Below, in pieces: positions 20,318 to 37,598 of a stretch of 41,965 nt of DNA; position 1 is the first letter of the stretch, and each line of letters begins with the position of its first letter. The DNA is taken from the NCBI GenBank assembly GCA_030917925.1, contig JAUPTV010000136.1, positions 1-41,965 on the forward strand, written 5' to 3'. Under the pieces are notes generated by a model that did not search any database, was not told where the DNA came from, and was given only the letters and a program-made list of their open reading frames with translations. The translations under genes were made by a program, and so were the position numbers. The stretch comes from Pseudomonadota bacterium. Lineage in GTDB: Bacteria; Pseudomonadota; Gammaproteobacteria; Competibacterales; Competibacteraceae.

Positions 20318-22039
20318 ATGTCTGCATCGATCCAGAATCCCGCAGAACAGTTGCAGCAGGCCGCTTTGGCTCTGGACGCCGTCCAAAAGGCGCTGGACTA
20401 TTCGCTGGCGGACGTGAAAGAACGCTCCCAGAAAGCCGATGGCAAAATCTCCGCCGCGCTGCTCGACCAGCATCAACTGGTCAGTTACGACCTGTCGCTA
20501 TCCTGTGCAGAAGTGACCGGTGCCCGCTTTAGCCTGGATTACGCAAAACGGGCGCGGACTGCTGGCGGCGGTTCGGCCAGTGAACTGACACTGGAGGAAC
20601 GCTTCGCGCTGCTGTTCACCGCTGAAGCGCTACAGGGCATTCGTAACCGGTTGAGCGCCCGCCCCGCCGACTTCGGGCTGAACGATCAGTGGCTGGGCGC
20701 AACGGTCGATCATATTGCGGTGCGGCAGTTTTGCCTGACGCAACTGGCTGCGGTTAAAGTCGCTGAACTGGGCCAGTTAATGCGCGCTCAGGGCGGCGTC
20801 ACTGGCGCTTATTTGCTGGACGATCATCACGAGATGATGCGTGAAACCTTCCGGCGCGTCGCGGAAGAAGTGGTGATGCCCCTGGCCGAAGAAATTCACC
20901 GCCACGATCTCGACATTCCCGCGACGATTATCGATCAACTCAAGGATCTGGGCTGCTTCGGTATTTCCATCCCGGAACGCTTCGGCGGCATCCAGAGCGA
21001 TGAGCAGGAAGACAATCTGGGCATGATCGTGGTCACGGAAGAACTCACGCGGGGTTCGCTGGGCGCGGCAGGCAGTCTGATTACACGTCCGGAAATTCTG
21101 GCCAAGGCGCTGTTGAAGGGCGGTACCGAGGAACAGAAATTGAAATGGCTGCCGCAACTGGCCACTGGCGATCTGCTCTGCGCCGTCGCGGTCACGGAAC
21201 CCAATTACGGTTCAGACGTGGCCAACATGCGCTTGAAAGCCACTAAAACTGAAGGCGGCTGGTTGCTGAATGGTGCCAAGACGTGGTGTACCTTCGGCGG
21301 TCGCGCTGGAGTGTTACTGGTGCTGGCCCGCACCAACCCGGACCTGTCGCTGGGCCATCGCGGGTTGTCGATGTTCCTGCTGGAAAAGCCGGATTATTCC
21401 GGGCACAAGTTCGAGTTTGTCCAGCCGGAAGGCGGCAAGCTGGCCGGCAAGGCGATTGCCACCATCGGCTATCGCGGGATGCACTCGTTTGATCTGTTCT
21501 TCGATAACGTGTTTATTCCTGACGAGAACCTGTTGGGCGGACCGGACGGTGAGGGCAAGGGCTTTTACTTCACCATGGCCGGTTTCGCGGGTGGACGTAT
21601 CCAGACCGCTGCCCGTGCGGTCGGTGTGATGCAGGCGGCTTATGAGAAAGCGCTGAGCTACGCGCAGGAACGCATGGTGTTCGGCTATCCGATTGGCGAC
21701 TACCAGTTGACTCAGGTCAAGCTGGCGCGGATGGCAACCTATCTGGCGGTCGGTCGGCAGTTCACCTATTCCGTGGGCCGCTTGATGGACAAAGGTGAAG
21801 GCGATATGGAAGCCAGCATGGTCAAGTTCTTTACCTGCAAAACCGCCGAATGGGTGACCCGCGAGGCGTTGCAGATTCACGGCGGAATGGGCTATGCCGA
21901 AGAAACGCCGGTTAGCCGCTATTTCATTGACGCCCGGGTGTTGTCAATTTTCGAGGGCGCCGAAGAGACGCTGGCGCTGAAGGTGATTACCCGCTCGCTG
22001 GTGGATAATGCAAAGGCCAAGGCCGAGGTGGAGAAATAA
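20318..22039 (+). CDS. mcd: (2S)-methylsuccinyl-CoA dehydrogenase
   Basis: Oxidises methylsuccinyl-CoA to mesaconyl-CoA in the ethylmalonyl-CoA pathway. The 573-residue protein has an acyl-CoA dehydrogenase core preceded by an extra helical domain of about 150 residues (from MSASIQNPAEQLQQAALALD), which separates Mcd from ordinary 380-residue acyl-CoA dehydrogenases. Core features are LCAVAVTEPNYGSDVANMRL, WLLNGAKTWCTFGGRA, the FAD region near QIHGGMGYAEETPVSRYF and FEGAEETLALKVI at the C-terminus. The neighbouring mch, ecm and ccr genes strongly support this substrate. It would pass electrons to electron-transfer flavoprotein, not encoded here. The gene ends three bases before mch. Confidence 0.9.
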   Translation: MSASIQNPAEQLQQAALALDAVQKALDYSLADVKERSQKADGKISAALLDQHQLVSYDLSLSCAEVTGARFSLDYAKRARTAGGGSASELTLEERFALLFTAEALQGIRNRLSARPADFGLNDQWLGATVDHIAVRQFCLTQLAAVKVAELGQLMRAQGGVTGAYLLDDHHEMMRETFRRVAEEVVMPLAEEIHRHDLDIPATIIDQLKDLGCFGISIPERFGGIQSDEQEDNLGMIVVTEELTRGSLGAAGSLITRPEILAKALLKGGTEEQKLKWLPQLATGDLLCAVAVTEPNYGSDVANMRLKATKTEGGWLLNGAKTWCTFGGRAGVLLVLARTNPDLSLGHRGLSMFLLEKPDYSGHKFEFVQPEGGKLAGKAIATIGYRGMHSFDLFFDNVFIPDENLLGGPDGEGKGFYFTMAGFAGGRIQTAARAVGVMQAAYEKALSYAQERMVFGYPIGDYQLTQVKLARMATYLAVGRQFTYSVGRLMDKGEGDMEASMVKFFTCKTAEWVTREALQIHGGMGYAEETPVSRYFIDARVLSIFEGAEETLALKVITRSLVDNAKAKAEVEK

Positions 22040-22042: not shown

Positions 22043-23218
22043 ATGAGCTTCTCGATGCGATTAGCCACTGAACAACCCGAAGTCGCCGGTTCCGTAGCGG
22101 TGAATCTGGAATGGGCGCGGCGTCCGCAGTATGGGCGCTATCTCGATGAGTTTGTGCCGGGACAGGTCTTTGTCCATCCGCGTGGCTACACCTTTGAACG
22201 CGGCCCGATGCTGGACTTCGCCCGGGTGTTCATGCAGTGCAACCCGCTGTATCTGAATCTGGAATACGCCAAGGCGCACGGCTTCCCGGATCTGCCCGCC
22301 AGCCCGCAGATGGTGTTCAACGTGGTGCTGTCGCTGGGTGTGCATAATGATTCGGAGAAGGCGATTGCCAATCTGGGTTATTACAACGTCCAGTTCCTGC
22401 GGCCGGTCTATCCGGGCGACACCCTGCGCGGCTATACCAAAGTCATGGACCGTAAGGCGCGTGGCGAGGACAAGCCGGGGATCGTGCTGATTCGCACTCT
22501 GGGGGTGAATCAGCATAACCAGGTGGTGTTGCAGTATGAGCGCAAGATTATGGTCGGCTATCGCGGCGACCGTCTGCCGACGACCCCCGCGCCGACAACG
22601 CCGGTGGACTTCCCGTGGGTGGAGCATCCGGTGGCGGAATTGCCGATTAATGGTGGCGGTTATCGGAGCCAGTTGACCGGCCCAAATACTTATTTCGAGG
22701 ATTTCTCCCTCGGTGATCTGATCGTTCATACCAATGGCCGCACGATTACTGATGAGCACATGGCCTGGACATATCTGGTGGGGAATACTCACCCGTTGCA
22801 TTTTGACCGGGTGTACAGCACCGGCCTGTCCGGCAAGATGAGCGGCGAACCGATTGTCTATGGCGGGCTAGTGTTTGCCTGGCTGGAAGGACTGGCCAGT
22901 CGCGATGTGAGCGAAAATGCGCTGTGGGAACTGGGCTTCACCGAGGGTTATCACACGCAACCGGCGGTGTCTGGCGATACGGTGGCCGCACTGTCGCGGG
23001 TGGTGGCGACCGAGGCGTTACCGAATAACGATGCAACGGGCATCGTGACTTTCCAGTTTATCGGCGTGAAGAATATCAGTGCTTCGGCGGCGCTGGAGAC
23101 TTACGGCGCTGATCTGTTTATCAAGGAGAATGATAAACAGAAATTGAGCAAGGAAAAGCTAAGCAACAAGATCTTTGAGATTGAACGGCGGTTGCTGATT
23201 AAACGGCGTCCGGCGTGA
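22043..23218 (+). CDS. mch: Mesaconyl-CoA hydratase (double MaoC domain)
   Basis: Hydrates mesaconyl-CoA to beta-methylmalyl-CoA, the step after Mcd. The 391-residue protein contains two hotdog/MaoC-like halves. The first includes GQVFVHPRGYTFERGPMLDF, ARVFMQCNPLYLNLEYAKAH and FLRPVYPGDTL. The second includes DLIVHTNGRTITDEHMAWTY, VGNTHPLHFDRVY and GEPIVYGGLVFAWLEGL. In the second half, NTHPLHFD is a plausible catalytic Asp/His-type hydratase region. The C-terminal tail is lysine-rich and looks non-catalytic. It is probably co-transcribed with mcd. The AT-rich islet begins just after its stop codon. Confidence 0.88.
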   Translation: MSFSMRLATEQPEVAGSVAVNLEWARRPQYGRYLDEFVPGQVFVHPRGYTFERGPMLDFARVFMQCNPLYLNLEYAKAHGFPDLPASPQMVFNVVLSLGVHNDSEKAIANLGYYNVQFLRPVYPGDTLRGYTKVMDRKARGEDKPGIVLIRTLGVNQHNQVVLQYERKIMVGYRGDRLPTTPAPTTPVDFPWVEHPVAELPINGGGYRSQLTGPNTYFEDFSLGDLIVHTNGRTITDEHMAWTYLVGNTHPLHFDRVYSTGLSGKMSGEPIVYGGLVFAWLEGLASRDVSENALWELGFTEGYHTQPAVSGDTVAALSRVVATEALPNNDATGIVTFQFIGVKNISASAALETYGADLFIKENDKQKLSKEKLSNKIFEIERRLLIKRRPA

Positions 23219-23229
23219 AGTGAGAATAG

Positions 23230-23252: not shown

Positions 23253-23287
23253 TACAAGCTTGTTACTACAACACAGGTAATAAAAAA

Positions 23288-23623: not shown

Positions 23624-23642
23624 ATTAACAATTGGAGATGTT

Positions 23643-23969: not shown

Positions 23970-23973
23970 TGTG

Positions 23974-24204: not shown

Positions 24205-24334
24205 AAAAATAAAGTGGATGAGCGTAGCTAAATGCCGATAAAAATGTTATGTAATCGCTTGATCTACATATGACAGTACCTTTTCAAACTATTAGTAATT
24301 CACGGCCATTGAAACTTTTGCAGTTGGAAAATAA

Positions 24335-24508
24335 ATCCGCGAACTGGATCGTCTGAACAGAGTGTATGGCAAGGGACGCTGACGAAAACGAAAAGGTATT
24401 GCAACAATAAAGCTATCCGACGATTTGACTAGGCTGGCTGAAATACATTGGTATGAAGCTACGGGTATTGGACGGAAAGAACTCAAGATTAAGGGCTATT
24501 TGGATTGA
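24335..24508 (+). pseudogene. Broken small gene upstream of the 77-residue protein
   Basis: One frame reads IRELDRLNRVYGKGR, then a TGA stop (24380-24382), then RKRKGIATIKLSDDLTRLAE and IHWYEATGIGRKELKIKGYLD. The part after the stop has the look of a conserved C-terminus found in small proteins paired with the next gene in other bacteria (from memory). A further in-frame TAA lies just upstream (24332-24334), and no start is available, so the gene is a decayed 3' remnant. The stop is six bases before the ATG of the next gene, consistent with a former operon. Confidence 0.5.
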
Positions 24509-24513
24509 AATTT

Positions 24514-24747
24514 ATGAACGATAAGCAAGATACAAGCTGCTTTGTCATTTGCATCTATAATAACGGCTACGAGGTTTCGTTAGAGAAACGAAAACTCTAT
24601 GAAGTACTCCCTGATTTTGATGCTGCCAAGCACCACCAAATTAGAATCATTGACGAATCGGGAGAAGATTATCTTTATCCTCAAGATTACTTCATAGAGA
24701 TCGTGTTACCTCAAGCAGTAGAGAGTGCATTAGCTGAAGCTGCCTAG
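24514..24747 (+). CDS. Small conserved hypothetical protein, 77 residues
   Basis: The reading frame contains CFVICIYNNGYEVSLEKRKL, YEVLPDFDAAKHHQIRIIDE and SGEDYLYPQDYFIEIVLPQA. This pattern (GYE.SLE.RK.Y...PD..A...G/H..R.IDESGEDYLYP..YF) is familiar as a small conserved protein of unknown function, common in cyanobacteria and sporadic elsewhere, often next to another small gene. The fold may be a compact beta barrel. A TTG at 24505 is an alternative start, but the ATG at 24514 fits family lengths. Its usual partner upstream appears broken here. Confidence 0.65.
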   Translation: MNDKQDTSCFVICIYNNGYEVSLEKRKLYEVLPDFDAAKHHQIRIIDESGEDYLYPQDYFIEIVLPQAVESALAEAA

Positions 24748-24812
24748 AGGAATCGGTCTCTGAAAAAGTTTAACTGAAGTGGATTTTATCAAGTTAGGTA
24801 ATGTGATAAAAA

Positions 24813-24911
24813 TGGTTCACCAAAAACAGAACCGGCTTCACGATTGATGATCTGGCCGAGTTATTCGGTGCCCTGGATTTCGTTTTCTATCACGCTATTG
24901 GCAAGGAATAG
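24813..24911 (+). pseudogene. Short gene fragment of unknown origin
   Basis: A stop-bounded frame reads WFTKNRTGFTIDDLAELFGA then LDFVFYHAIGKE before TAG. TIDDLAELFGA resembles the beginning of a helix-turn-helix and suggests a leftover of a transposase or regulator gene, but it has no start codon or ribosome site. It lies in the 237 bases between the small conserved gene and ecm, which otherwise appear empty apart from the ecm leader. Confidence 0.25.
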
Positions 24912-24984
24912 CGCATTGACTTGCTGTTAAAAATCAACAATCAACAATTAAACCCCAAACCACAGTCCACCCAAAGAGGCTTCC

Positions 24985-26988
24985 ATGACCACCCCTGTAA
25001 AGCGCGACAAACCCTGGCTGATGCGGACCTACTCTGGCCATTCCTCCGCCAAGGCTTCCAATGAACTCTATCGCACCAATTTAAGTAAAGGGCAAACCGG
25101 CCTGTCAGTGGCCTTTGACCTGCCAACCCAGACCGGCTACGACGCTGATCATCCGCTGGCGCGGGGCGAAGTTGGCAAGGTCGGTGTCCCGATCTGCAAT
25201 ATCGGCGACATGGAAGCACTGTTCGATCAGATTCCGCTCGGGCAGATGAACACCTCGATGACCATCAACGCGCCGGCTGCCTGGTTACTGGCTCTGTACG
25301 TTGCGGTCGCGGAACGGCAGGGCGCTGCGCCAGCCCAGTTGCAGGGCACTACGCAAAACGACATCCTCAAAGAATATCTGTCGCGGGGCACCTATATTTT
25401 CCCGCCGCAACCCTCTGTGCGGCTGATTACCGACATCATCGCTTACACGGTCAAGAACATTCCCAAGTGGAATCCGACCAACATTTGCAGCTATCACTTG
25501 CAGGAAGCGGGCGCGACCCCGACTCAGGAATTGGCCTATGCGCTGTCTACCGCCATCGCCATTCTTGATGCAGTGCGCGATTCCGGGCAGATCGGCGCGG
25601 ACGGCTTTGAGCAAGTGGTGGGACGCATCTCCTTCTTCGTCAATGCCGGTATCCGCTTTATCGAGGAAACCTGCAAAATGCGGGCGTTCGGCGAGATGTG
25701 GGACCAACTGGCCCAGCAACGCTATGGCGCACAGAGCGAGGAAATGCGCCGCTTCCGCTATGGCGTACAAGTCAACTCGCTCGGGCTGACCGAAGCGCAA
25801 CCGGAAAATAATGTCCAGCGCATCGTGCTGGAAATGCTCGGCGTGGCCCTGTCCAAGAACGCCCGCGCCCGCGCCTTGCAACTCCCGGCCTGGAACGAGG
25901 CGCTCGGTCTGCCGCGTCCGTGGGATCAGCAATGGGCGTTGCGGATGCAGCAGGTGCTGGCCTTTGAAACCGATTTGCTGGAATACGGCGACATTTTCGA
26001 CGGTTCCACGGTCATCGCCGCCAAGGTTAAATCGCTGGTGGATAGCGCCACTGCGGAAATGGCCCGGGTGCAGGAACAAGGCGGCATGGTCCAGGCGATT
26101 GAGTCCGGCTATGTCAAGCGGCAACTGGTGTCCAGCCATACCGACCGGATGCGCGCCATTGAAAGCGGCGATCTGAAGATCGTCGGCCTGAATTGCTACA
26201 AGGAAACCGAAGTCTCCCCGCTGACTGGCGGCAAGGACAGCGGCATTATGAAGGTCGATCCGCGTGCGGAACGCGAGCAGATCGAACGGCTCAACGCCTT
26301 CCGCGCCCAGCGGAATAATGCTGAAGTCAACGCGGCGTTGGCCAATTTGGCCGAAACCGCCCGCAGCGGCGCGAATATTATGCCTGCGTCGATTCTGTGC
26401 GCTCACGCGGGCGTGACCACCGGCGAATGGTCGCAAACTTTGCGTGACATTTTCGGTGAATACCGCGCCCCGACCGGCATCGACATTCCGGCCAATGAGG
26501 ACAGCCGCAGCGCCAAGGTCACAGCCATTCGCGCCGAAGTGGCCAAAACGGGCGAAGAATTAGGTCGGCCTCTGCGCCTGCTGATCGGCAAGCCGGGTCT
26601 GGACGGGCATAGCAACGGCGCGGAACAGATTGCGGTCAAGGGTCGCGATGTCGGCTTCGAGATCGTCTACGAAGGCATCCGCCTGACCCCGGAACAAATC
26701 GCTAAAGCGGCGCTGGAGGAAGGCGTTCACCTGATCGGCTTGTCGGTGTTGTCCGGCAGCCATGTCGAAATGGTCGAGGATGTCTTCAACTATCTCAATC
26801 AGGCGGGCTTGAAGAATCTGCCGGTGGTCATTGGCGGCATCATCCCGGAAAGCGACGCCGAGTTATTGAAAGGGCGCGGAATTTCAGCGGTTTACACCCC
26901 CAAGGACATCGACATGAACGGGATCATGGTGGATATCCTGAATCTGATCCGTAAAAACCACGATCTACCCGTGGTCACGGTGGCATGA
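24985..26988 (+). CDS. ecm: Ethylmalonyl-CoA mutase, adenosylcobalamin-dependent
   Basis: Rearranges (2R)-ethylmalonyl-CoA to (2S)-methylsuccinyl-CoA. The 667-residue single-chain enzyme has a TIM barrel (RTYSGHSSAKASNELYRTNL, GLSVAFDLPTQTGYD, MNTSMTINAPAAWLLALY) and a C-terminal B12 domain with the cobalt-ligating DXHXXG at D540-G-H542 and GGIIPESD downstream. GHSSAKASNELYR and FDLPTQTGYD are of the Ecm type rather than methylmalonyl-CoA mutase, which has other residues at these points; this distinction rests on remembered alignments. AGAGG precedes the ATG by about nine bases. It overlaps meaB by ATGA, coupling mutase and chaperone. Confidence 0.92.
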   Translation: MTTPVKRDKPWLMRTYSGHSSAKASNELYRTNLSKGQTGLSVAFDLPTQTGYDADHPLARGEVGKVGVPICNIGDMEALFDQIPLGQMNTSMTINAPAAWLLALYVAVAERQGAAPAQLQGTTQNDILKEYLSRGTYIFPPQPSVRLITDIIAYTVKNIPKWNPTNICSYHLQEAGATPTQELAYALSTAIAILDAVRDSGQIGADGFEQVVGRISFFVNAGIRFIEETCKMRAFGEMWDQLAQQRYGAQSEEMRRFRYGVQVNSLGLTEAQPENNVQRIVLEMLGVALSKNARARALQLPAWNEALGLPRPWDQQWALRMQQVLAFETDLLEYGDIFDGSTVIAAKVKSLVDSATAEMARVQEQGGMVQAIESGYVKRQLVSSHTDRMRAIESGDLKIVGLNCYKETEVSPLTGGKDSGIMKVDPRAEREQIERLNAFRAQRNNAEVNAALANLAETARSGANIMPASILCAHAGVTTGEWSQTLRDIFGEYRAPTGIDIPANEDSRSAKVTAIRAEVAKTGEELGRPLRLLIGKPGLDGHSNGAEQIAVKGRDVGFEIVYEGIRLTPEQIAKAALEEGVHLIGLSVLSGSHVEMVEDVFNYLNQAGLKNLPVVIGGIIPESDAELLKGRGISAVYTPKDIDMNGIMVDILNLIRKNHDLPVVTVA

Positions 26989-27992
26989 TCCCGGCGCTGC
27001 CTGAACCTGCGGCGCTGGCCCAAGCGGTAAGCTGCCGCGACCGGCTGGCGCTGGCCAAGGCGCTGAATTTGCTGGATGACCGGCGGCCCGCAGCTCGGCA
27101 GTGCGCTGCCGCATTTTTGGATGCTCTACCGGCGGAGAAGCAGGCGGCCGGGGGGCATCTGATCGGCATTACCGGCCCACCCGGTGCCGGGAAATCTTCA
27201 TTGACCGCCGCGCTGATTCAGGTGTGGCGGCGGCGCGGCTTGAAAGTGGCCATTCTGGCAGTCGATCCTTCCAGTCCCATCAGTGGCGGCGCGTTGCTGG
27301 GCGACCGGTTGCGAATGCACGCCAGTGGTGCGGATAAAGAAGTGTTCATCCGCTCACTGGCCTGTCGCGGCGAATTTGGTGGCCTGAGCGCCGAAGTCTG
27401 GCCGATGAGTCTGGCGATGCTGGCGGCGTTTGACATCGTGCTGGTGGAGACAGTGGGCGTCGGGCAGAAGGAAATCGACGTTTCCAAGATGACCGACACT
27501 ACTTGTTTCGTCGCGCAACCGGCGTCCGGCGACAGCATCCAGTTTCTGAAAGCCGGTATCATGGAAATCCCGCACGTCATTGTCGTCAATAAGGAAGACA
27601 TCGGTATGGCGGCGCGGAAAACGCTATCGGAACTGAAAACCACCCTGGGGCGACGCACTGATGCGGACGGTTGGCAAGCGCCCGCCTTGTCCGCGAGCGC
27701 CGCGCTGGGCAGTGGGATTGAAGCGCTGGCGGATGCATTGAACAATCACCGGACCTGGCTGCTGGAACGTGGGCAATTTACCGCTCGTCGTCAGCGCTGT
27801 CAGGCCGAATGGCTGGTTAAACACCTGCGTGAAGAGTTCGGGCGCTACGGGCTGAATCTGCTCGGTGGCGATGCCGCGCTCTTTGCGGAACTGGCCGGAG
27901 CGCCGCGCTGTTCGCCCATCGGCGCTTACGAAAACCTGCGCACCCGCGTCATGGAACGGTTCCAGTCATCCCGCGCACCGTCAACGACCTGA
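26985..27992 (+). CDS. meaB: MeaB-type GTPase chaperone of the B12-dependent mutase
   Basis: A 335-residue G3E-family GTPase that protects and reactivates acyl-CoA mutases by gating cofactor loading. Motifs are Walker [14 protein letters not shown] (about residue 58 onward), [21 protein letters not shown], the switch region CRGEFGGLS, Walker B/G3 [15 protein letters not shown] and NKED. Overlap with ecm by four bases makes Ecm its likely client here, although an off-window methylmalonyl-CoA mutase could share it. The start codon is the ATG in the ecm stop. Confidence 0.93.
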
Positions 27993-28041: not shown

Positions 28042-29796
28042 ATGATGAAAGAACTCTACAACCTCGGTGAAATGCCCCCCCTGGGCGTCATTCCCAAGAA
28101 AATGCACGCCTGGCTGATTCGTGCGGAACGGTTCGGGAAACCGACCGAGGCGTTCAAGCAGGAAGTGGTCGATGTGCCGTCCATCGCTGACGATGAAGTG
28201 CTGGTTTATGTGATGGCGGCGGGCATCAACTACAACAACGTGTGGGCGGGACTGGGTATTCCGGTCAACGTCATCGGGGCGCGCAACAAGGCCGGGGAAC
28301 CGGAAGATTTCCATATCGGCGGCAGCGATGCGTCCGGCATCGTCTACAAAGTCGGTAAGGACGTGACCAACGTCAAGGTCGGCGATGAAGTGGTGATGCA
28401 TTGCGGGCAGTGGAATCGCAATTGCGAATGGGTCAAGAACGGCGGCGATCCGATGTATTCGCCAAGCTTCCGGATTTGGGGTTACGAGACCAATTACGGC
28501 AGCTTCGCCCAGTTCACCAAGGTGCAGGGTCATCAATGTATGCCCAAGCCCAGGCACATGAACTGGGAAGAATCCGCTGCTTATGTGCTGGTCGGCGCGA
28601 CCGCTTGGCGGATGCTGCATGGCTGGGGCGCGAATGAGGTGAAGAAAGGCGATGTGGCGCTGATCTGGGGTGGTGCGGGCGGCCTCGGCTCCATGGCCAT
28701 CCAGATCGCCAAGGCAGCGGGTGCCACCCCGGTAGCGATGGTGTCCGGCGAGGACAAGTTCGACTACTGCATCAAACTGGGCGCGAAGGGCTGCATCAAC
28801 CGCAATGAGTTTGACCACTGGGGCATGTTGCCGCACTGGAAAGACAACGTGGGTTACGCCAAGTGGTTGAAGGGCGTCCGGTCGTTCGGCGCGAAGATTT
28901 GGGAAGTGCTGGGCGAAAAGCGTGCACCGAACATTGTGTTCGAACATCCTGGCGAAACCACCATTCCGACCTCCATCTTTGTTTGCGACACCGGCGGCAT
29001 GGTGGTCGTGTGTGCGGGGACGACGGGCTATAACGCCACGGTCGATCTGCGCTATCTGTGGATGCGCCAGAAGCGCCTGCAAGGTTCGCATTTTGCCAAC
29101 GCTGATCAGTCCAACCAGATGAATGAACTGGCGGTGCGCGGGTTGCTGGATCCCTGCATGTCGCGGGCGTTCACCTATGAAGAACTGCCGGTTGCTCATC
29201 AGTTGATGCACGATAACAAGCATCCGCACGGCAACATGTCGGTGTTGGTGGGCGCGACGGCGTTTGGCCAGGGTGCCCATGGCAAGCCACCGATGATCAT
29301 TGAACATCCGAGCCTGCCCAAGGGCGATGTGCATAACACGCCTCATCCCTATCCGATGTCCACGCCGTTGCCAGGCATTGGCGAAGCCGAAGCGCTCACC
29401 ATCACCGATGATGGTTCGAAGGTGAAGGATTTAATGCATCGCGGCATCATTTCCTGCACACCGGAGGATACCGTCGGCACCGTCGCCAAGATTATGGTGA
29501 ACAAGGAAATTCATGCGGTAGTGGTGATGGATCAAACCGGTAAAGCCATTGGCGTCGTATCGCAAACCGACATGGTGCTGGCGCGGCAGGGTCGGACGTC
29601 GGATCAGGCGCGGGCGCTGCGCGCTAAAGAAGTGATGACTCCCGGTTGCGCAACTTGCGATGCGGAGATGCTATTGAGCGATGCGGTCAGCCTGATGACC
29701 GGGCGGCGGATGCATCGCCTGGTCGTGACTGAGAAGGATCAACCGGTCGGCGTGATCTCCATGACCGACGTGGTGCGCAAGATCATCGGCGAGTAA
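28042..29796 (+). CDS. ccr: Crotonyl-CoA carboxylase/reductase fused to a CBS-domain pair, copy 1
   Basis: Reductively carboxylates crotonyl-CoA with CO2 and NADPH to ethylmalonyl-CoA, the key EMC reaction. Residues 1 to about 405 are the medium-chain reductase: [33 protein letters not shown], the Rossmann region [20 protein letters not shown], and [17 protein letters not shown]. The Asn of NYNN, the Glu of GYETN and the His of QGSHFAN probably correspond to the CO2-pocket residues known in characterised homologues. A Pro/Gly-rich linker (about 406-460) leads to two CBS domains (461-584) with [20 protein letters not shown] and [12 protein letters not shown]. Known Ccr proteins end near residue 430. 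The frame is open for 59 codons upstream inside meaB; AGAGAGG before ATG 28042 and alignment with copy 2 fix the start. Confidence 0.93.
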
Positions 29797-29841
29797 GCGG
29801 GTTGGCCGTAAGGGTCAAACCACCCCGGCGCTGACGCGCCA

Positions 29842-29868
29842 CCCCTCCTTATCCAAGGAGGGGACTGT
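29842..29868 (+). terminator. Hairpin after ccr copy 1, probable terminator
   Basis: A perfect 9-bp stem CCCCTCCTT (29842-29850) / AAGGAGGGG (29855-29863) with an ATCC loop, followed by ACTGTTTG. It lies between convergent ccr and marR. The T-run is weak, so termination efficiency is uncertain; it also resembles the dispersed GC-rich hairpins of the window. Confidence 0.5.
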
Positions 29869-29880
29869 TTGAAATTCCCG

Positions 29881-29900
29881 CTCTCCCTCGCGGGGGAGGG
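29881..29900. repeat. GC-rich hairpin upstream of the marR stop
   Basis: CTCTCCC (29881-29887) pairs with GGGAGGG (29894-29900), allowing one G-T pair, around a six-base loop. It is a further member of the CTCTCCC..GGGAG family and sits 18 bases from the 3' end of marR, in convergent intergenic space. Confidence 0.5.
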
Positions 29901-29918
29901 CGTTGTGAATACCGCTAT

Positions 29919-30407
29919 TCAATCGGTCGTGTCCTCGAACTTGTGCAGGTGCAGTTGCGCCTGATCGAGTTCAAGAGCAGCCGACAGATTCAATTTCACA
30001 ATTTGCAATATCCCGGACAGATCTTGCTGCTGTTCGGCCGACAGGCCGCGCAGCATTTCCGTGCGGGTGTTCAAAATGATCTTTTCAACCTCGGCAGTCA
30101 GTTCCCGCGCCTGGTTAGTCAGATGGACGCCCCATAAGCGCCGGTCGCCAGGGATCGGACGCCGTTCAATCCAGCCGCTCTTTTCAACCTGATCGATCAG
30201 TCGGCCGACCGTGGATTTCTCGATTTCGAGTTCGTCGGAGATTTGCGACTGAGAGAGACCATCGTGATTGGACAGGATGGTCAGAATAGACCATTGCGCA
30301 CGGGACAGACCCAGCGGCTGTAATCGGCGGTCGAGGAGCTTGCGAAGCAAGCGAGCGGAGTCGGTGAGGAGGAAGCCGGGGCCTCGGTAGGAATCATGGA
30401 TGATCAT
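29919..30407 (-). CDS. MarR-family transcriptional regulator
   Basis: A 162-residue winged-helix regulator. Helical dimerisation segments flank a DNA-binding core: LSRAQWSILTILSNHDGLSQ, SQISDELEIEKSTVGRLIDQ (recognition helix) and the wing region SGWIERRPIPGDRRLWGVHL. The frame remains open far upstream (to 30806) into the divergent gene, but the residues there are not MarR-like; the ATG beginning MIIHDSYRGPG at 30407 gives a normal family length. It is divergent from pckG, with a palindrome between them, so it likely controls pckG and itself. MarR proteins in such places often sense CoA thioesters or organic acids, though the ligand is unknown. Confidence 0.85.
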   Translation of the reverse strand: MIIHDSYRGPGFLLTDSARLLRKLLDRRLQPLGLSRAQWSILTILSNHDGLSQSQISDELEIEKSTVGRLIDQVEKSGWIERRPIPGDRRLWGVHLTNQARELTAEVEKIILNTRTEMLRGLSAEQQQDLSGILQIVKLNLSAALELDQAQLHLHKFEDTTD

Positions 30408-30516
30408 GTCGTTGGCCTTGATGGCGATGTTCCAATGGAAATAGTCGTTAGCATAAGCCCAATACCCGCAAACAAAGTTCCGAAATCCCGGTTTTTTGGG
30501 TTGAATAATAAGCTTG

Positions 30517-30542
30517 CTTACTATAAGCTTTATTTTAGTAAG
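30517..30542. promoter_or_regulatory. Candidate MarR operator between marR and pckG
   Basis: A 7-bp inverted repeat CTTACTA (30517-30523) / TAGTAAG (30536-30542), separated by 12 bases, lies in an AT-rich patch of otherwise GC-rich intergenic DNA. AAGCTT occurs twice nearby (30510-30515 and 30525-30530). Position between divergent regulator and target, symmetry and base composition all suit a MarR dimer site, but I have no binding data. Confidence 0.5.
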
Positions 30543-30609
30543 GTAGCATACCGTATGTCGCCTAACTACAAAGTTCCCTAACATGCCGAACCGGAGAGTA
30601 GGAATAACG

Positions 30610-32466
30610 ATGAGCAACACACCGAACCTCGCCAGCGTACCCACCAACAACCAGAAACTACTCGCCTGGGTGGGCGAGATCGCCACACTGTGCAAGCCCG
30701 AGCAGGTCGTTTGGTGCGATGGCTCGCCCGCTGAATACGACCGTTTATGCAATCTGATGGTCGAGGGCGGCACCTTTATCCGTCTCAATCCGGAAAAGCG
30801 GCCCAACTCCTATCTTGCACGCTCGCATCCTTCCGACGTCGGTCGGGTTGAAGACCGCACCTTTATCTGCTCCATCAACAAGGAAGACGCCGGCCCGACC
30901 AACAACTGGGCAGCGCCGGCGGAAATGCGCGCCACCTTGAATGGCCTGTTCGACGGCTGTATGCGCGGCCGCCCCATGTACGTGATTCCATTCAGCATGG
31001 GTCCGCTTGGCTCACCCATTGCCAAGATCGGTATTGAAATTACCGACAGCCCTTATGTTGTTGTCAACATGGGGATCATGACCCGCATGGGCCGCGCCGT
31101 GCTGGACGTGCTGGGCGAAGACGGCTTCTTCATCCCCTGCGTTCACTCGGTGGGCGCGCCGCTGGCTCCGGGTCAAAAGGATGTCCCATGGCCGTGCGAA
31201 GGCGACATCAAGCGCAAGTACATCGTCCATTACCCGGAAACCTACGAAATCTGGTCCTACGGCTCAGGCTATGGCGGCAACGCCCTGCTCGGTAAGAAGT
31301 GCCTGGCGCTGCGCATCGCCTCGGTGATGGCCCGCGACGAGGGCTGGCTGGCTGAACACATGCTGATCATGGGGATCGAATCGCCGCAGGGTGAGAAAAC
31401 CTACCTCGGCGGCGCCATGCCCAGCGCCTGCGGCAAGACCAATCTGGCCATGCTGGTGCCACCCAAAGGCTTTGAAGGCTGGAAAGTCACCACCGTGGGC
31501 GACGATATCGCCTGGATCAAGAAAGGCCCGGATGGCAGTTTGCGCGCCATCAATCCCGAAGCGGGCATTTTCGGCGTGGCGCCCGGCACCAATATGGCGT
31601 CCAACCCCAATGCGATGCTCAGCATTACTAAAAATTGCATCGTCACCAATGCGGCGTTGACCGATGACGGCGATGTGTGGTGGGAAGGCATGGACGGTCC
31701 GCCGCCGGCGCATGCCATTGACTGGAGGGGCGAGGACTGGACGCCCGACTGTGGTCGGGTCGCCGCGCATCCCAACGCCCGCTTCACCGCCCCGGCCAGC
31801 CAGGTGCCGAGCATTGATCCAGAGTGGGAGAACCCCGCTGGCGTACCCATCAGCGCTTTCGTCTTCGGTGGGCGGATGAGCAAGGACATGCCACTGGTGT
31901 TCCAGGCCTTTAACTGGAGCCACGGTGTGTATCTGGCCGCCACCATGGGATCGGAAGCCACGGCGGCAGCCATTGGCCAGGCGGCGATGCGCCGCGACCC
32001 GATGGCGATGCTGCCCTTTTGCGGCTACAACATGGCCGATTATTTCAGTCACTGGCTGAATGTCGGTCGTCGGGTACCCAATCCACCGCGCATCTTCCGC
32101 GTCAACTGGTTCCGCAAGGACGACAACGGCAAATTCCTGTGGCCGGGCTTCGGTGAAAACATGCGCGTCCTGAAATGGATCGTGGACCGGGTTCACGGTC
32201 GCGGCTATGGCGTCGAAAGCCCGATTGGCTGGATGCCGCGTCATGAGGACCTCTCATGGGCAGGTCTCGACTATCCGAGCGACACCTTCTACGACCTGAT
32301 GGCGGTGGGCCGCAAGGCCGGCACCTCTGAGGCGCATGCCCACGAAGAGCAGTTCGATCTGTTCTTCGACCGCTTGCCCAAAGAGTTCATCTTCGAACGC
32401 GAATTGCTGCGCTCCCGGCTGTGGCGTTCGCCCGATCAATGGGAACTGGCCCACGAGGCGGCCTGA
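30610..32466 (+). CDS. pckG: Phosphoenolpyruvate carboxykinase (GTP)
   Basis: Interconverts oxaloacetate + GTP and PEP + CO2 + GDP, linking the EMC pathway's C4 products to gluconeogenesis. The 618-residue length is normal. Visible motifs are the substrate-binding [18 protein letters not shown] region, the P-loop-like kinase-1a motif [16 protein letters not shown] (about 268-283), the metal-binding DDIAWI, and the GTP-class signature [20 protein letters not shown]. The ATP-dependent PckA has a different sequence. The frame opens nine codons earlier, but AGTAGGAATAACG precedes the ATG at 30610. A MarR gene is divergent. Confidence 0.94.
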
Positions 32467-32566
32467 TCGATTTCCGTTTGAGGGTCGGGTCACACCCGCA
32501 AGAAACCTCCCTCCCCCAAGGGTGCGGCTCGATCCACTTAATCCAGCTTGATTGTAGGTTCATTAA

Positions 32567-33529
<963 letters not shown>

Positions 33530-33596
33530 CCGTCAGTACTATCGACTGATCCCTCCCAGACTTCATAGTGACTTCAACTCAATAAGGAGCAATTTT

Positions 33597-33965
33597 GTGA
33601 AAATTAATATCCAGGCCCGGGGTTTTGAGCTGACCGACCGCTTGCGCGAACATACCGAACGGCATCTGCGGCACACGCTCGGTTGGGCCGACGACCACCT
33701 GCGCCAGGTCTCAGTGCGTCTTTACGGCCAGAGCGGTCCTCGCAGAGGCAAGGACACCCGCTGCCGAATCCAGATCGACTTGCCCGGTGTACAGGACTTG
33801 GTGATTGAGGATATCCAAACTGATCTGTACGTCGCCATCGACCGGGCTGCCAACCGGGTCTGCCACTTGTTGGCCCGGTTATTACTGGAACGGCAGCGCG
33901 ATCTTCGCTATAGCCTGTTATCGCAGGCCAAGTCGGATGATAAAGTCGCACTGTCTCCACACTGA
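33597..33965 (+). CDS. Ribosome hibernation-promoting factor family protein
   Basis: A 122-residue protein of the HPF/YfiA (S30EA N-terminal) family. It starts VKINIQARGFELTDRLREHT and continues RHTLGWADDHLRQVSVRLYG and AIDRAANRVCHLLARLLLER, the usual beta-alpha-beta-beta-beta-alpha pattern. Such proteins bind the decoding centre in stationary phase and block translation. It is of the short form with no dimerisation domain and has a somewhat divergent charged middle (GPRRGKDTRCRIQIDLPG). The start is a GTG supported by AAGGAGC eight bases upstream; the longer open frame begins inside mdh and is not credible. Its place between mdh and ccr is unusual. Confidence 0.78.
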   Translation: MKINIQARGFELTDRLREHTERHLRHTLGWADDHLRQVSVRLYGQSGPRRGKDTRCRIQIDLPGVQDLVIEDIQTDLYVAIDRAANRVCHLLARLLLERQRDLRYSLLSQAKSDDKVALSPH

Positions 33966-34035
33966 ACGTAAATCCTCCCCATAAAGATCGGGGGGAGTCC
34001 GGCAAGCAGTTGTTTCGTATGAAGAGGACATAAGG

Positions 34036-35790
34036 ATGACGAAAGAATTGTATAACCTCGGTGAAATGCCCCCGTTGGGCGTGATTCCCCCGAAAATGCA
34101 CGCCTGGCTGATTCGCCCGGAACGGTTTGGCAAGCCGATGGAGGCATTTCAGAAAGAAGTGGTTGATACGCCGCCCATTGCTGATGACGAAGTGCTGGTC
34201 TACGTCATGGCGGCGGGTATCAACTACAACAATGTCTGGGCGGGACTGGGCATTCCGATTGACGTGATTGGCGCACGCAACAAGGCGGGCGAACCGGAAA
34301 AGTTTCATATCGGTGGCAGCGACGCCTCGGGCATCGTCTACAAAATCGGCAAGGATGTGACCCACGTCAAGGTCGGCGATGAAGTGGTGATGCATTGTGG
34401 CCAATACAGCCGCAACTGCGAATGGGTGAAGAACGGCGGTGACCCGATGTACTCGCCCACCTACCGCATCTGGGGCTATGAGACCAACTGGGGCAGCTTC
34501 GCCCAATTCACTAAAGTGCAAGCGCAGCAGTGTATGCCCAAGCCCAGGCACCTGACTTGGGAAGACGCGGCAGCTTACACGCTGGTTGCAGCGACTGCTT
34601 GGCGGATGTTGCATGGCTGGGGCGCGAATGCGGTTAAGAAAGGCGATGTCGTGCTGATCTGGGGCGGCGCCGGGGGTCTCGGTTCGATGGCCATCCAGAT
34701 TGCCAAAGCCGCCGGTGCGACCCCGATTGCCATGGTGTCGGGCGAGGACAAGTTCGACTATTGCATGAAGCTGGGTGCGAAAGGCTGCATCAACCGTAAT
34801 GAGTTTGACCACTGGGGCATGTTGCCGCATTGGAAGGATAATGTCGGTTACGCCAAATGGTTGAAGGGCGTGCGGGCGTTTGGGGCGAAGATTTGGGAGG
34901 TGCTGGGCGAGAAGCGTGCACCGAACATTGTGTTCGAGCATCCCGGCGAAACCACCATTCCGACCTCCATCTTTGTTTGCGACACCGGCGGCATGGTCGT
35001 CGTTTGCGCGGGGACGACCGGCTATAACGCCACCGTCGATCTGCGCTATCTGTGGATGCGCCAAAAGCGCCTGCAAGGTTCGCATTTCGCCAATACCGAG
35101 CAATCCAACCAGATGAACGAACTGGCATTGCGCGGTCTGCTGGACCCCTGCATGTCGCGGGCGTTCACCTATGACGACATTCCGATGGCCCATCAACTGA
35201 TGTACGAAAACCAGCACCCGCACGGCAACATGTCCGTGCTGGTTGGTGCGACCGAGTTTGGCCAAGGGGCCAGCGGCAAGCCGCCGGTGGCGGCTGAACA
35301 CCCGAGCTTGCCCAAGGGCGATGTGCATACCACGCCGCATCCCTATCCAATGTCGGCACCGCTGCCGGGTATTGGCGAAACCGAAGCGATCACCATCGCT
35401 GACGACGGCACCAATGTTCGGGATTTGATGCATCGTGGTATTATTTCCTGCACCCCCACCGATACCGTCGGCACAGTCGCCAAAATCATGGTGAACAAGG
35501 AAATTCATGCCGTGGTGGTGATGGACCCAACCGGCAAGGCGATTGGTGTCGTCTCGCAAACCGATATGGTGCTGGCGCGGCAGGGGCGGACGCCGGATCA
35601 GGCGCGGGCGCTGCAAGCTAGCGACGTGATGACGCAGGGTTGCGCGACCTGCGATGCCGAGATGCTGTTGAGCGATGCGGTCAGCCTGATGACCGGGCGG
35701 CGGATGCATCGTCTGGTCGTGACTGAGAAGGATCAGCCGGTCGGCGTGATTTCCATGACTGACGTGGTGCGCAAGATCATCGGCGAGTAA
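34036..35790 (+). CDS. ccr: Crotonyl-CoA carboxylase/reductase fused to a CBS-domain pair, copy 2
   Basis: Second copy of the key EMC enzyme, again 584 residues with the same layout: carboxylase/reductase (1 to about 405), linker, two CBS domains (461-584). By eye it differs from copy 1 at about 61 positions, some 90 percent identity with no gaps. Between residues 245 and 353 only one position differs, and the last 40 or so residues are identical, while the N-terminal third and the linker vary more. All motifs described for copy 1 are kept ([35 protein letters not shown]). AAGAGGACATAAGG precedes the ATG. It follows the hibernation factor and precedes carbonic anhydrase, and may form a transcription unit with the latter. 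Confidence 0.93.
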
Positions 35791-35898
35791 GCGGCCAGGA
35801 TAACAATGCTTGACGATGCTTGCGGAAAGACATCGTTCAGGCTGGGGGTATCGGGATACGGTACCCTTTTTGAATTTCGTATTGACTGGAGAAGATTG

Positions 35899-36561
35899 AT
35901 GAAATACCTGCCTGAGTTGTTTGCCGCCAACGCCCGCTGGGCTGAAGAGATGCGAGCGGTCGATCCTGGCTTCTTCGCCGGACTGGCGGCGCTGCAAAAT
36001 CCGGGTTACCTGTGGATCGGCTGTTCAGACAGTCGGGTGCCGGCGAATCAGATCACGGGCCTGAAGCCGGGTGAAATATTTGTTCATCGTAACGTCGCCA
36101 ATGTGGTGGTGCATACCGATCTTAACTGCTTGTCGGTGATGCAATACGCCATCGAAGTTCTCAAGGTTCAGCACATCATTGTTTGCGGTCACTACGGTTG
36201 CGGCGGAGTCCGGGCCGCTTTGGAAGGGCCATCACTGGGGCTGATCGACAACTGGTTGCGCCATATCCAGGATGCGCGGGACCGGCATCTGGATTTCATC
36301 ACCGCGCTACCGGACGACGCCACGCGCTGGCAGGCCCTGTGCGAACTGAATGTCATTGAGCAGGTGCGCAATGTCGCCCGCACGACGCTGGTGGGCGATG
36401 CCTGGCAGCGGGGACAATCGCTGATACTGCACGGCTGGATTTACGGTCTGAAGGACGGACGCTTGCAGGACCTGCAAACCTCGCTGAAGTCCAGCGCCGA
36501 ACTGGATACAGTGATCGCCGAGGCGGTGGCGACAGTCCGGTCGCGCTATGTGACCCGTTGA
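35899..36561 (+). CDS. Beta-class carbonic anhydrase
   Basis: Interconverts CO2 and bicarbonate. The 220-residue protein has the zinc site C42-X-D44-X-R46 (IGCSDSRVPANQ) and H98-X2-C101 (VCGHYGCGGV), with FVHRNVANVV between them, all typical of plant/bacterial beta-CAs. The chosen ATG follows a TGGAGAAG; an earlier in-frame ATG at 35806 would add 31 residues unlike the family. It lies 108 bases after ccr copy 2, whose product uses CO2, and the cell also needs bicarbonate for propionyl-CoA carboxylation; either could explain its placement. Confidence 0.92.
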   Translation: MKYLPELFAANARWAEEMRAVDPGFFAGLAALQNPGYLWIGCSDSRVPANQITGLKPGEIFVHRNVANVVVHTDLNCLSVMQYAIEVLKVQHIIVCGHYGCGGVRAALEGPSLGLIDNWLRHIQDARDRHLDFITALPDDATRWQALCELNVIEQVRNVARTTLVGDAWQRGQSLILHGWIYGLKDGRLQDLQTSLKSSAELDTVIAEAVATVRSRYVTR

Positions 36562-36614
36562 ATCCAGTACCGCTCCCTGTTAAAAGGACGCAACTATCCA
36601 CGGAGTTGTCAGCC

Positions 36615-37598
36615 ATGAAAGCGATTGTTTGCCACGAACTCACCGGCCCGGCGGCGCTGCGGTTTGAAGAGGTTCCAGAACCACGCCCTGGTCCGGGCCA
36701 GGTGCGTATCCGGGTGCGGGCTTGCGGGGTTAATTTCGCCGATAGCCTGATGACCCGTGGCCAGTATCAGCAGCAACCGCAACCGCCCTTCAGCCCCGGC
36801 TTCGAAGTGTCCGGCGAGGTGCTGGAACGAGGCGCGGGTGTGGAGAGAATCGCAGTCGGGGATCGGGTAATCGCCATGACGCTGCACGGGGGTTATGCCG
36901 AACAGGTCGTGGCGGAGGTCAAGCGCTGTGTGCCGATGCCGGCGGCGATGTCCTGGGAACACGGTGCCGCCTTTCCCGTGGTGTTTGGCACGTCGCACGT
37001 TGCGCTATGGCATCGAGCGCGGTTGCAAGCGGGTGAGACGCTGGTGGTGCATGGCGCTTCCGGCGGAGTCGGCTTGACGGCGGTCGCCATTGGCAAGCAG
37101 TTGGGCGCAACGGTCATTGCTACCGCGAGCGGTCCGGAAAAGCTGGCCGTGGCTCGTGAACATGGTGCGGATCATCTGATTGATGTGGGCCACGAGGATG
37201 TCCGAACGCGGATTAAGGAACTGACTGATGGGCGCGGCGCGGATGTGGTTTACGATCCGGTCGGCGGTGACCTGTTCACGGCGTCCCTGCGCAGCATTGC
37301 TTTTGAAGGGCGGATTCTGGTGATTGGTTTTGCTGGTGGCACCGTGCCGCAGATTCCCGCAAATCATTTGCTGGTGAAGAATGTGGACGTGATCGGCCTG
37401 AACTGGCCGGCTTATGCGGAACTGAATCCCCGGGTGATGACCGAGAGTTTCGCGACCCTGATGGACTGGTATTTAACCGGCGCGATCAGGCCGCATGTGT
37501 CGGCGACCTGGCCGCTGGAGCAGGCGGTCGAGGCGCTTAATCAGATAGTGACACGTCAATCTACCGGCAAGGTCGTGATTACGGTGGGCGAGTCGTGA
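36615..37598 (+). CDS. NADPH:quinone oxidoreductase-type MDR family protein
   Basis: A 327-residue zinc-free medium-chain dehydrogenase/reductase. It starts MKAIVCHELTGPAALRFEEV and contains RACGVNFADSLMTRGQYQ, the nucleotide-binding VHGASGGVGLTAVAIGKQLG, and GRGADVVYDPVGGDLF. No structural or catalytic zinc cysteines are present. Family members reduce quinones or alpha,beta-unsaturated acyl compounds with NADPH; the CoA-thioester context leaves the substrate open. The ATG at 36615 has GGAG nine bases upstream; the frame also opens 19 codons earlier, overlapping the carbonic anhydrase gene, with less likely residues. Confidence 0.85.
   Translation: MKAIVCHELTGPAALRFEEVPEPRPGPGQVRIRVRACGVNFADSLMTRGQYQQQPQPPFSPGFEVSGEVLERGAGVERIAVGDRVIAMTLHGGYAEQVVAEVKRCVPMPAAMSWEHGAAFPVVFGTSHVALWHRARLQAGETLVVHGASGGVGLTAVAIGKQLGATVIATASGPEKLAVAREHGADHLIDVGHEDVRTRIKELTDGRGADVVYDPVGGDLFTASLRSIAFEGRILVIGFAGGTVPQIPANHLLVKNVDVIGLNWPAYAELNPRVMTESFATLMDWYLTGAIRPHVSATWPLEQAVEALNQIVTRQSTGKVVITVGES

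Follow-up and report, generated by a model that had tools for sequence, protein, structure and literature searches.

Two crotonyl-CoA carboxylase/reductases with a C-terminal CBS pair in an ethylmalonyl-CoA gene cluster of a Competibacteraceae genome

We analyzed a window of 41,965 nt (the whole stretch of DNA considered here) from a Competibacteraceae genome (Pseudomonadota; GCA_030917925.1, contig JAUPTV010000136.1). Two genes of this window, here called ccr-CBS, encode a crotonyl-CoA carboxylase/reductase (Ccr) that continues into a pair of CBS domains, and both sit within an ethylmalonyl-CoA (EMC) gene cluster. The genes and features of this region are as follows:

20318..22039, + strand: acyl-CoA dehydrogenase, probably methylsuccinyl-CoA dehydrogenase (mcd), named by context
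22043..23218, + strand: mesaconyl-CoA hydratase (mch); Pfam MC_hydratase 78.3 bits, cut-off 26.5
24985..26988, + strand: B12 mutase, probably ethylmalonyl-CoA mutase (ecm), named by context; under the methylmalonyl-CoA mutase equivalog cut-off
26985..27992, + strand: MeaB-type mutase chaperone GTPase
28042..29796, + strand: ccr-CBS copy 1, 584 aa; Ccr at residues 1-412, linker 413-456, CBS pair 461-584
29278..29409, + strand: Pro-rich linker of copy 1, residues 413-456, predicted disordered
29422..29583, + strand: CBS repeat 1 of copy 1, residues 461-514; motif G504-V-V-S-Q-T-D510
29623..29787, + strand: CBS repeat 2 of copy 1, residues 528-582; motif G570-V-I-S-M-T-D576
29919..30806, - strand: MarR-family regulator, ORF as listed; true start probably internal
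30613..32466, + strand: GTP-dependent PEP carboxykinase (pckA)
32579..33529, + strand: malate dehydrogenase (mdh)
33450..33965, + strand: HPF/YfiA-like S30EA protein, domain at ORF residues 52-141; above the Pfam, below the NCBIfam cut-off
34036..35790, + strand: ccr-CBS copy 2, 584 aa
35416..35577, + strand: CBS repeat 1 of copy 2
35617..35781, + strand: CBS repeat 2 of copy 2
35806..36561, + strand: beta-carbonic anhydrase
36558..37598, + strand: PIG3/quinone-oxidoreductase (qor)-like MDR protein, under the subfamily cut-off

Upstream of copy 1, the EMC neighborhood thus comprises a probable mcd, mch, a probable ecm and the MeaB gene (20318-27992). Both ccr-CBS reading frames are uninterrupted along their full 584 aa, and the two proteins are 90% identical. 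The Ccr part matches the NCBIfam equivalog TIGR01751 with 553.5 bits in copy 1 (residues 16-412) and 554.3 bits in copy 2 (residues 18-412), against a cut-off of 378.55. The Pfam CBS profile matches two stretches in each protein (87.4 bits, E 8.1e-25, and 84.4 bits, E 6.7e-24; cut-off 24), and in a profile search of the genome all four repeats exceed the Pfam cut-off singly. A Ccr fused to a CBS pair and intact in both copies, as originally predicted, is therefore what these proteins are, with residues 461-584 resolving into two repeats. Unfused Ccr relatives end at 408-415 aa (33 rows, leaving aside one truncated by the locus end). The extension past the normal Ccr end, for which 155 residues had been claimed, is real and slightly longer, at about 170 residues with the 44-residue linker included; the linker is probably flexible, given a pLDDT below 50 at residues 411-454 of the predicted structure. 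Chance or assembly error is excluded because full-length matches recur in assemblies made independently of this one, among them the complete chromosome of Defluviicoccus SSA4.

By profile and CO2-site residues, ccr-CBS is a carboxylating Ccr. The residues N65, Y148, E149 and H350, kept in 63/63 aligned fused proteins, map by alignment to N81, F170, E171 and H365, the CO2-site residues given for the K. setae enzyme (PMC10966969). The Tyr at position 148, where K. setae has Phe170, is shared by all 33 unfused rows. In the CBS pair, the motif G-h-h-S/T-x-x-D is near-invariant in both repeat 1 (G504 63/63, S507 62/63, D510 63/63) and repeat 2 (G570 63/63, S573 61/63, D576 63/63); with N allowed at its last position, we take this to be the consensus of adenine-nucleotide-binding CBS repeats. 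Among 10 pairs of nine genes, dN/dS was 0.044-0.147 for the CBS pair and 0.033-0.092 for Ccr, although in several of these comparisons dS approached or exceeded 1. Mean identity was 67-69% for the CBS pair versus 82% for Ccr, and the constraint on the CBS pair is looser. Its intactness in both paralogues, which had been read as speaking for function, is accompanied by strong purifying selection on the pair and by nucleotide motifs in both repeats. Three Cys residues of the pair are also conserved (C472 60/63, C536 58/63, C539 51/63). A thiol switch acting as a redox gate was considered and dropped, as Cys occurs at the sites equivalent to 472 and 539 in 8 and 14 of 29 generic CBS stretches (drawn from genomes of the Defluviicoccus order and from that of the window); C536 is the unusual one, as the 8 commonest entries at its site in those stretches do not include Cys.

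The fusion is not confined to the window genome. The suggested search of Ccr homologues for a downstream CBS pair in the same chain yielded full-length fusions in 43/58 loci (with a broken frame in two of these, L073 and L076), and of the 28 sequences in alignment A1, the 22 fused ones carry Pfam CBS and the other 6 are unfused. The carriers include Competibacteraceae, Accumulibacter, Propionivibrio and Defluviicoccus, which are phosphate- or glycogen-accumulating, as well as other proteobacterial genomes, and span three traditional proteobacterial classes. Restriction to the EBPR guild was rejected, as the fusion is also carried by Loclat MAGs (presumably named after a lake) and by genomes from the order and the class to which Defluviicoccus belongs. 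The beta/gamma copies are 87-90% identical in their Ccr part, compared with 66-69% for rpoB of the same species (one genome excepted, and with eight rpoB rows of G392 left out); the gene has therefore moved horizontally. Among 160 genomes of the Defluviicoccus order, 12 have Ccr-CBS, with CBS modules of 47-61% identity; the other matches are all generic CBS proteins of 28-39%, and no donor of the pair could be named. No split version, with such a CBS frame beside an unfused Ccr, was found in the loci tested, whose flanks were about 1.5 kb for some and up to 8 kb for others. Two unfused rows whose matches had extended through stop codons toward residues 480 or 449 (G351 and G551) are ordinary Ccr without CBS.

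A single gain of the CBS pair fits the trees. The tree requires one change of fusion state when G1482, a close relative without the pair, is omitted, and two when it is included. The unfused Ccr of G827 falls just outside the fused clade and G1482 inside it, both being long rows of unsure placement, and support for the fused node drops from 93/93 to 83/63 in the tree with G1482. Forcing the 64 fused rows into one group lowers the log-likelihood by 5.8 units, an arrangement that the AU test does not reject (p 0.339), and our earlier reading of at least one loss was accordingly withdrawn; G1482 possibly lacks the pair by loss. The nested tree favors transfer from alpha- to beta/gammaproteobacteria, against which stands that G827 (unfused) and G011 (fused, early-branching) belong to the class of the window. 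The two window copies belong to different gene modules, and a recent tandem duplication was rejected on account of their different subclades and many third-codon-position differences; copy 1 groups with RA.bin98 (support 98/93). The last 45 codons of the two copies are near-identical (129/135 bases), perhaps as a trace of local gene conversion.

In a search with the full-length model, results were filled by the dehydrogenase part, and the CBS pair was therefore folded and searched alone. Its model (mean pLDDT 89.8) matched MJ0922 (Z 19.0), AcuB with AMP and ADP (18.8), MJ0100 with MTA/SAM (18.3) and CBSX2 with AMP (18.1). The structure prediction that had been proposed as a check thus returned a CBS-pair fold resembling AMP/ADP/ATP-binding pairs such as AcuB. 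Fold and motif are what point to adenine nucleotides as candidate ligands; since structural neighbors within 3 Z units include binders of AMP/ATP, SAM, c-di-AMP and Ap4A, they cannot tell AMP/ATP from other adenosyl ligands.

From these data we infer a ligand, an effect on Ccr with its direction, and a physiological role for the CBS pair. We consider it fairly likely that ccr-CBS is a carboxylating Ccr whose CBS pair acts as an allosteric adenylate sensor at the branch between polyhydroxyalkanoate (PHA) storage and the EMC pathway. The Ccr part would convert crotonyl-CoA, CO2 and NADPH to ethylmalonyl-CoA, while the CBS pair, on its flexible linker, would most likely bind adenine nucleotides at two pseudo-symmetric sites. 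KsCcr is described as a tetramer with half-site reactivity (PMC10966969); CBS pairs associating across the subunits of such a tetramer would change the proportion of subunits that are open rather than closed, and carboxylation would then track the adenylate state of the cell. In these storage-polymer bacteria, crotonyl-CoA lies at the branch between PHA storage and the EMC route to propionyl-CoA and succinyl-CoA/malate, followed by Mdh/PckA and glycogen, and a sensor at this point would work as a fast post-translational valve. As to direction, we tentatively suggest that ATP permits and AMP/ADP restrains Ccr, AMP being a product of acetyl-CoA synthetase during acetate uptake. Transcription of EMC genes is reported to rise under phosphate limitation (PMC12604563), which would fit low-energy activation as well as it fits this direction. 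Two close relatives manage without the pair (G827 and G1482), and we count this, along with the looser constraint on the pair, against a sensor.

The original prediction had placed the sensor on the committed step of the EMC pathway, for energy-charge control of acetate assimilation. Ccr does lie in an EMC cluster, but among 16 genomes examined for isocitrate lyase, that of the window and 10 more have it above cut-off, and in these two acetyl-CoA routes therefore coexist; Ccr of the window genome is thus a branch-point step rather than the sole route. In the same 16 genomes, no isocitrate lyase exceeded the cut-off in Defluviicoccus (G077, G080), G254, G754 and G827; choosing between the two routes can therefore not be the sole purpose of a sensor.

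Other readings of the CBS pair were weighed against an adenylate sensor. It is unlikely, though the least so of these, that the pair senses another ligand, such as SAM/MTA, Ap4A, c-di-AMP, NAD(P)H or, as product feedback, the adenosine of a CoA ester. Structural neighbors in complex with such ligands (MJ0100 with MTA/SAM, DarB and OpuCA with c-di-AMP, AcuB with Ap4A) are in keeping with this, as is a signature of the fused module (H491, T509, H558-R559) where the 29 generic stretches mostly have G, R and R-H; however, we found nothing in the pair that would be diagnostic of any one of these ligands, and both repeats retain the canonical adenine-nucleotide motif. Less probable still is a mainly structural role free of ligand control, in higher-order assembly or in docking a partner such as carbonic anhydrase or the mutase. 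CBS pairs commonly self-associate, the linker would permit docking, and ccr-CBS and the syntenic qor-like gene stay together in most Competibacteraceae and Accumulibacter loci, yet the motif residues, needless for a ligand-free scaffold, rank with the best-conserved positions in the module. A neutral history, in which the fusion became fixed a single time by chance and was then carried along, would agree with its single gain, the faster divergence of the CBS pair and the existence of relatives without it (G827 and G1482, the latter possibly by loss), but is already largely refuted, and very improbable, given the low dN/dS, the near-invariant motifs and the retention of the pair in the two copies of the window as well as in three classes.

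How acetyl-CoA is divided between storage and anaplerosis, and how redox is balanced, is an open question in phosphate- and glycogen-accumulating bacteria and bears on phosphorus removal from wastewater; a sensor within a key EMC enzyme would offer a concrete molecular handle on this split. It is conceivable, though somewhat less likely than not, that a single fusion gave rise to a Ccr directly controlled by adenylates that was passed among the unrelated storage-polymer bacteria Defluviicoccus, Competibacter, Accumulibacter and Propionivibrio and sets the PHA/EMC split of acetyl-CoA in feast/famine cycles. Ccr is used in synthetic CO2-fixation cycles, for which such a protein would be a natural switchable version, and its apparent single origin, CBS-less relatives (G827, G1482) and cross-class transfer provide ready comparisons.

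Ccr is a known kind of enzyme, and its variant with a C-terminal CBS pair is apparently undescribed in the open literature: word searches across 5.39 million open papers found no published description of a Ccr-CBS fusion, in agreement with the original prediction, which named no such architecture for characterized Ccr enzymes. With Ccr proteins of TIGR01751, ccr-CBS shares the EMC gene neighborhood and the CO2-site residues (N, Y-for-F, E, H), and with solved structures (K. setae 6OWE; 4GI2, presumably from M. extorquens; AntE 4Y0K; 9KVA) the whole catalytic domain (model Z 31-41). In contrast, the pair is absent from the canonical Ccr proteins examined; 10 solved Ccr-type sequences, of 410-467 residues, align only up to ccr-CBS residue 413 and have no C-terminal CBS pair. 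Among 56 plasmid records, none covers 80% of the ccr-CBS query and none has such a pair. AcuB (9S4V/9S51), CBSX2 (4GQY), MJ0922 and MJ0100 share the CBS-pair fold (Z 18-19) and the motif in both repeats, at 18-27% identity, but are free proteins, whereas in ccr-CBS the pair is an appendage of Ccr. The logic predicted for ccr-CBS, a catalytic domain with an allosteric CBS pair, is that of IMP dehydrogenase, an enzyme regulated by its attached pair, and of CBS-pyrophosphatase and T. brucei GMP reductase. These differ in catalytic fold and pathway and have the pair inserted or N-terminal, whereas that of ccr-CBS is C-terminal on an MDR-family carboxylase. For CBS-pyrophosphatase, inhibition by AMP/ADP and activation by ATP are described (PMC11172384), and for T. 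brucei GMP reductase, regulation by its attached CBS pair (PMC7160140).

Two genes of the window encode crotonyl-CoA carboxylase/reductase (Ccr) with a C-terminal CBS pair:

28042-29796, forward strand: ccr-CBS copy 1, 584 residues, matching TIGR01751 and Pfam CBS
34036-35790, forward strand: ccr-CBS copy 2, 584 residues, matching TIGR01751 and Pfam CBS

The Ccr model TIGR01751 covers both proteins to about residue 412 (553.5 and 554.3 bits; cut-off 378.55). The domain search named in the original prediction as a possible refutation bears out its CBS pair at residues 461-584, where two repeats are found (Pfam CBS, 87.4 and 84.4 bits; cut-off 24), each also detected separately in a whole-genome scan. 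As unfused relatives end at 408-415 residues, about 170 residues have been added, including a Pro-rich linker (residues 413-456; disorder predicted for 411-454); the predicted extension is thus present in both copies, but is longer than the roughly 155 residues claimed. The fusion is, as had been stated, intact in both paralogues, with the Ccr and CBS matches of each above cut-off. The CO2-holding residues of K. setae Ccr, given in PMC10966969 as N81, F170, E171 and H365, align (chain index minus 2) with N65, Y148, E149 and H350, which are invariant in 63/63 aligned fused proteins. All 33 unfused rows likewise keep N, Y and H, and 12 of them have Q instead of E. The motif G-h-h-S/T-x-x-D, the consensus for adenine-nucleotide sites of CBS domains, is nearly invariant in both repeats of the 63 fused proteins. 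Among ten pairs of nine genes, with dS near or above 1 in several, dN/dS was 0.044-0.147 for the CBS part and 0.033-0.092 for Ccr, and looser for the linker (0.043-0.320, one pair undefined). C536, in the CBS part of both copies, is Cys in 58 of the 63 fused proteins and absent among the residues listed for 29 generic CBS stretches.

The host genome (G000; window as contig C102) is 4.2 Mb and 98.7% complete. Match positions show Ca. Competibacter phosphatis and Ca. Contendobacter odensis to lie in its family, and its rpoB is 87-88% identical to theirs, which places it in Competibacteraceae, known for glycogen-accumulating organisms. The two copies are surrounded by genes for an acyl-CoA dehydrogenase (probably methylsuccinyl-CoA dehydrogenase, mcd), mesaconyl-CoA hydratase (mch), a B12 mutase (probably ethylmalonyl-CoA mutase, ecm) and meaB, and further by a MarR regulator, GTP-dependent pckA, mdh, an HPF-like gene, a beta-carbonic anhydrase and a PIG3-like oxidoreductase; the neighbourhood combines an ethylmalonyl-CoA (EMC) cluster with gluconeogenic genes. 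Three further open reading frames gave no Pfam match at E 0.001, the longest also no NCBIfam match at 1e-10:

18137-19423, reverse strand: 428 aa, adjoining the EMC cluster
23288-23623, forward strand: 111 aa, between mch and ecm
23643-23969, forward strand: 108 aa, between mch and ecm

Copies 1 and 2 share 90% identity, yet fall into different subclades of the Ccr tree. All three other relatives with two complete genes (G016, G025, G029) have one of them downstream of ecm-meaB and ahead of the oxidoreductase gene (qor), and the other beside pckA, marR, carbonic anhydrase and hpf. The closest locus of our species-genome scan, RA.bin98 (L037), has a single copy, with carbonic anhydrase and qor downstream of it; in the window, the second module, pckA-mdh-hpf-ccr2, stands between marR and carbonic anhydrase. 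From this comparison, copies 1 and 2 belong to two gene settings that are adjacent in the window.

The proposed search of Ccr homologues for a downstream CBS pair was run on 84,980 species genomes, using peptide patterns of the window protein and therefore biased to close relatives. It gave 58 loci: 43 fused from end to end (match starting at residue 1 or 2 and ending at 582-584; frame broken in two, L073 and L076), one cut by a contig end with its CBS pair (L093), and 14 with Ccr only. Fused loci are labelled Ca. Competibacteraceae, Ca. Accumulibacter, Propionivibrio, Defluviicoccus, Rhodospirillales or plain proteobacterial MAGs, besides one "Synechococcaceae" cyanobacterium MAG (L073) and one "Rhizobiales" MAG (L069), whose fused genes are close to Competibacteraceae-type ones. 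The former label is probably wrong, as G035, which belongs to the window's family, has an identical match place; the latter MAG (G075), a possible case of binning contamination, has an additional separate Ccr (52% identical), while the other 27 of 28 genomes taken from fused loci had no additional unfused Ccr. Surveys of groups around Pseudomonadota, with partly overlapping draws (full protein as query, E <= 1e-60), gave the counts below; other phyla were touched by the species-genome scan and by a plasmid search, in which none of 56 Ccr-bearing records (of 72,556) covered 80% of the query.

Genomes with a match in each surveyed group
Window's relatives: 21/59; 18 full-length fusions, two pieces including CBS (G035, G004), G033 undetermined
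Accumulibacter family: 3/150; all fused
Defluviicoccus order: 112/199; 16 fused (G345 contig-cut)
Defluviicoccus class: 121/385; 4 fused
Window's class: 4/369; 3 fused, 1 unfused
Accumulibacter order: 3/399; 1 fused, 1 unfused, 1 distant with no match past residue 372

One genome of the Defluviicoccus class (G754, L152) carries two fused genes in direct tandem (contig C50, 37929-41643).

Among tested loci, a Ccr domain at least 70% identical to copy 1 always comes with the CBS pair, barring contig or locus ends and broken frames, and none below this value (53-68%) has it. A maximum-likelihood tree restricted to the Ccr part (94 rows) requires one change of state, with the unfused G827 protein on a long branch just outside the fused clade. 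Adding the unfused Ccr of G1482 (L207, Accumulibacter order; frame 1426-2817 of the reverse complement; 67% identity, 27-residue tail) placed this long branch within the fused clade, grouped with the G754 pair (98/89), giving two changes. A constraint holding the 64 fused rows together was not rejected (AU p 0.339), so that a single gain fits these sequences; G1482 (or G827) may or may not have lost the pair. The frame adjoining G1482 Ccr has, by eye, a GHSLG thioesterase-like sequence, and this Ccr may therefore have become part of a biosynthetic cluster. A further clade of unfused, Ccr-like proteins (L137-L140, L153-L160; Defluviicoccus order and class) is 57-60% identical; Gln replaces the Glu equivalent to K. 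setae E171 in 12 of its 16 rows, and the clade may represent a separate reductase that perhaps carboxylates weakly or not at all. A second Ccr (53-55%) is present in some of the genomes that carry it.

The beta- and gammaproteobacterial fused proteins, except deep-branching G011 and with the "Rhizobiales" MAG, form a 45-row clade (100/99) nested among Defluviicoccus order and class sequences. Between Competibacteraceae (G000, G005, G063, G065) and the Accumulibacter family (G062, G068, G106), rpoB is 66-69% identical, whereas Ccr reaches 87-90% and CBS 77-89%. The copy-1 CBS pair is nearest to that of its congener G005 (91%), and is 87-89% identical to Accumulibacter versus 79-81% to Competibacter/Contendobacter. 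G011 has no excess likeness to those genomes (rpoB 70%, Ccr 76-78%, CBS 59-62%). Gene order is conserved in the Accumulibacter operon, but mcd (65-69%), ecm (mostly 70-72%) and meaB (mostly 47-50%) are less alike than ccr-CBS (83-88%). Ccr does not inherently evolve more slowly than ecm, as identities in Pelagibacteraceae are 53-54% for Ccr and 59-62% for ecm. These comparisons therefore give good support to horizontal movement of ccr-CBS between the classes, in one direction or the other. In most Competibacteraceae and Accumulibacter loci, ccr-CBS is followed by qor:

36558-37598, forward strand: PIG3/quinone-oxidoreductase-like gene (qor)

Its cross-class similarity (73-86% in Accumulibacter) nearly equals that of ccr-CBS, and it looks to have been co-transferred.

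Nucleotide control of Ccr would be physiologically reasonable, because activation of acetate by acetyl-CoA synthetase yields AMP, crotonyl-CoA stands between storage polymer and EMC pathway, and pckA, mdh and carbonic anhydrase adjoin. Ccr is a tetramer that has both open and closed subunits and shows half-site reactivity (PMC10966969). On the model of other CBS-regulated enzymes, such as a CBS-pyrophosphatase that AMP and ADP inhibit and ATP activates (PMC11172384), the flexibly tethered CBS pair might join that of the adjacent subunit, and nucleotide binding to the paired domains would then shift the open/closed balance. The direction of control is a guess. Among the beta/gamma genomes tested, all nine besides G827 had an isocitrate lyase above cut-off (window, G005, Contendobacter, Competibacter, four of the Accumulibacter family, Propionivibrio), as did G577 and G392; neither of the two Defluviicoccus genomes nor G254, G754 or G827 did. 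The EMC pathway has been tied to propionyl-CoA and redox balance for Contendobacter (PMC8956781), Accumulibacter (PMC12604563) and Defluviicoccus (PMC9041414).

The original prediction knew of no such architecture, and we found no description in the open-licence PMC literature: no paper mentioned a CBS domain together with crotonyl-CoA carboxylase, crotonyl-CoA reductase or Accumulibacter, the two that mention it with crotonyl-CoA are unrelated by their titles and opening abstract lines, and "CBS" is absent from the main text of PMC8956781, PMC12604563, PMC9041414 and PMC2289847. A known enzyme and a known sensor stand in an apparently undescribed combination of putative function, though the proteins are publicly deposited and a domain database may list it. 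The structure prediction that had been suggested gave, for the CBS part, a model (mean pLDDT 89.8) whose Z scores against solved CBS pairs are 18-19; these pairs include AcuB bound to AMP and ADP, MJ0922, MJ0100 with MTA/SAM and CBSX2 with AMP; Foldseek lists CBS pairs too.
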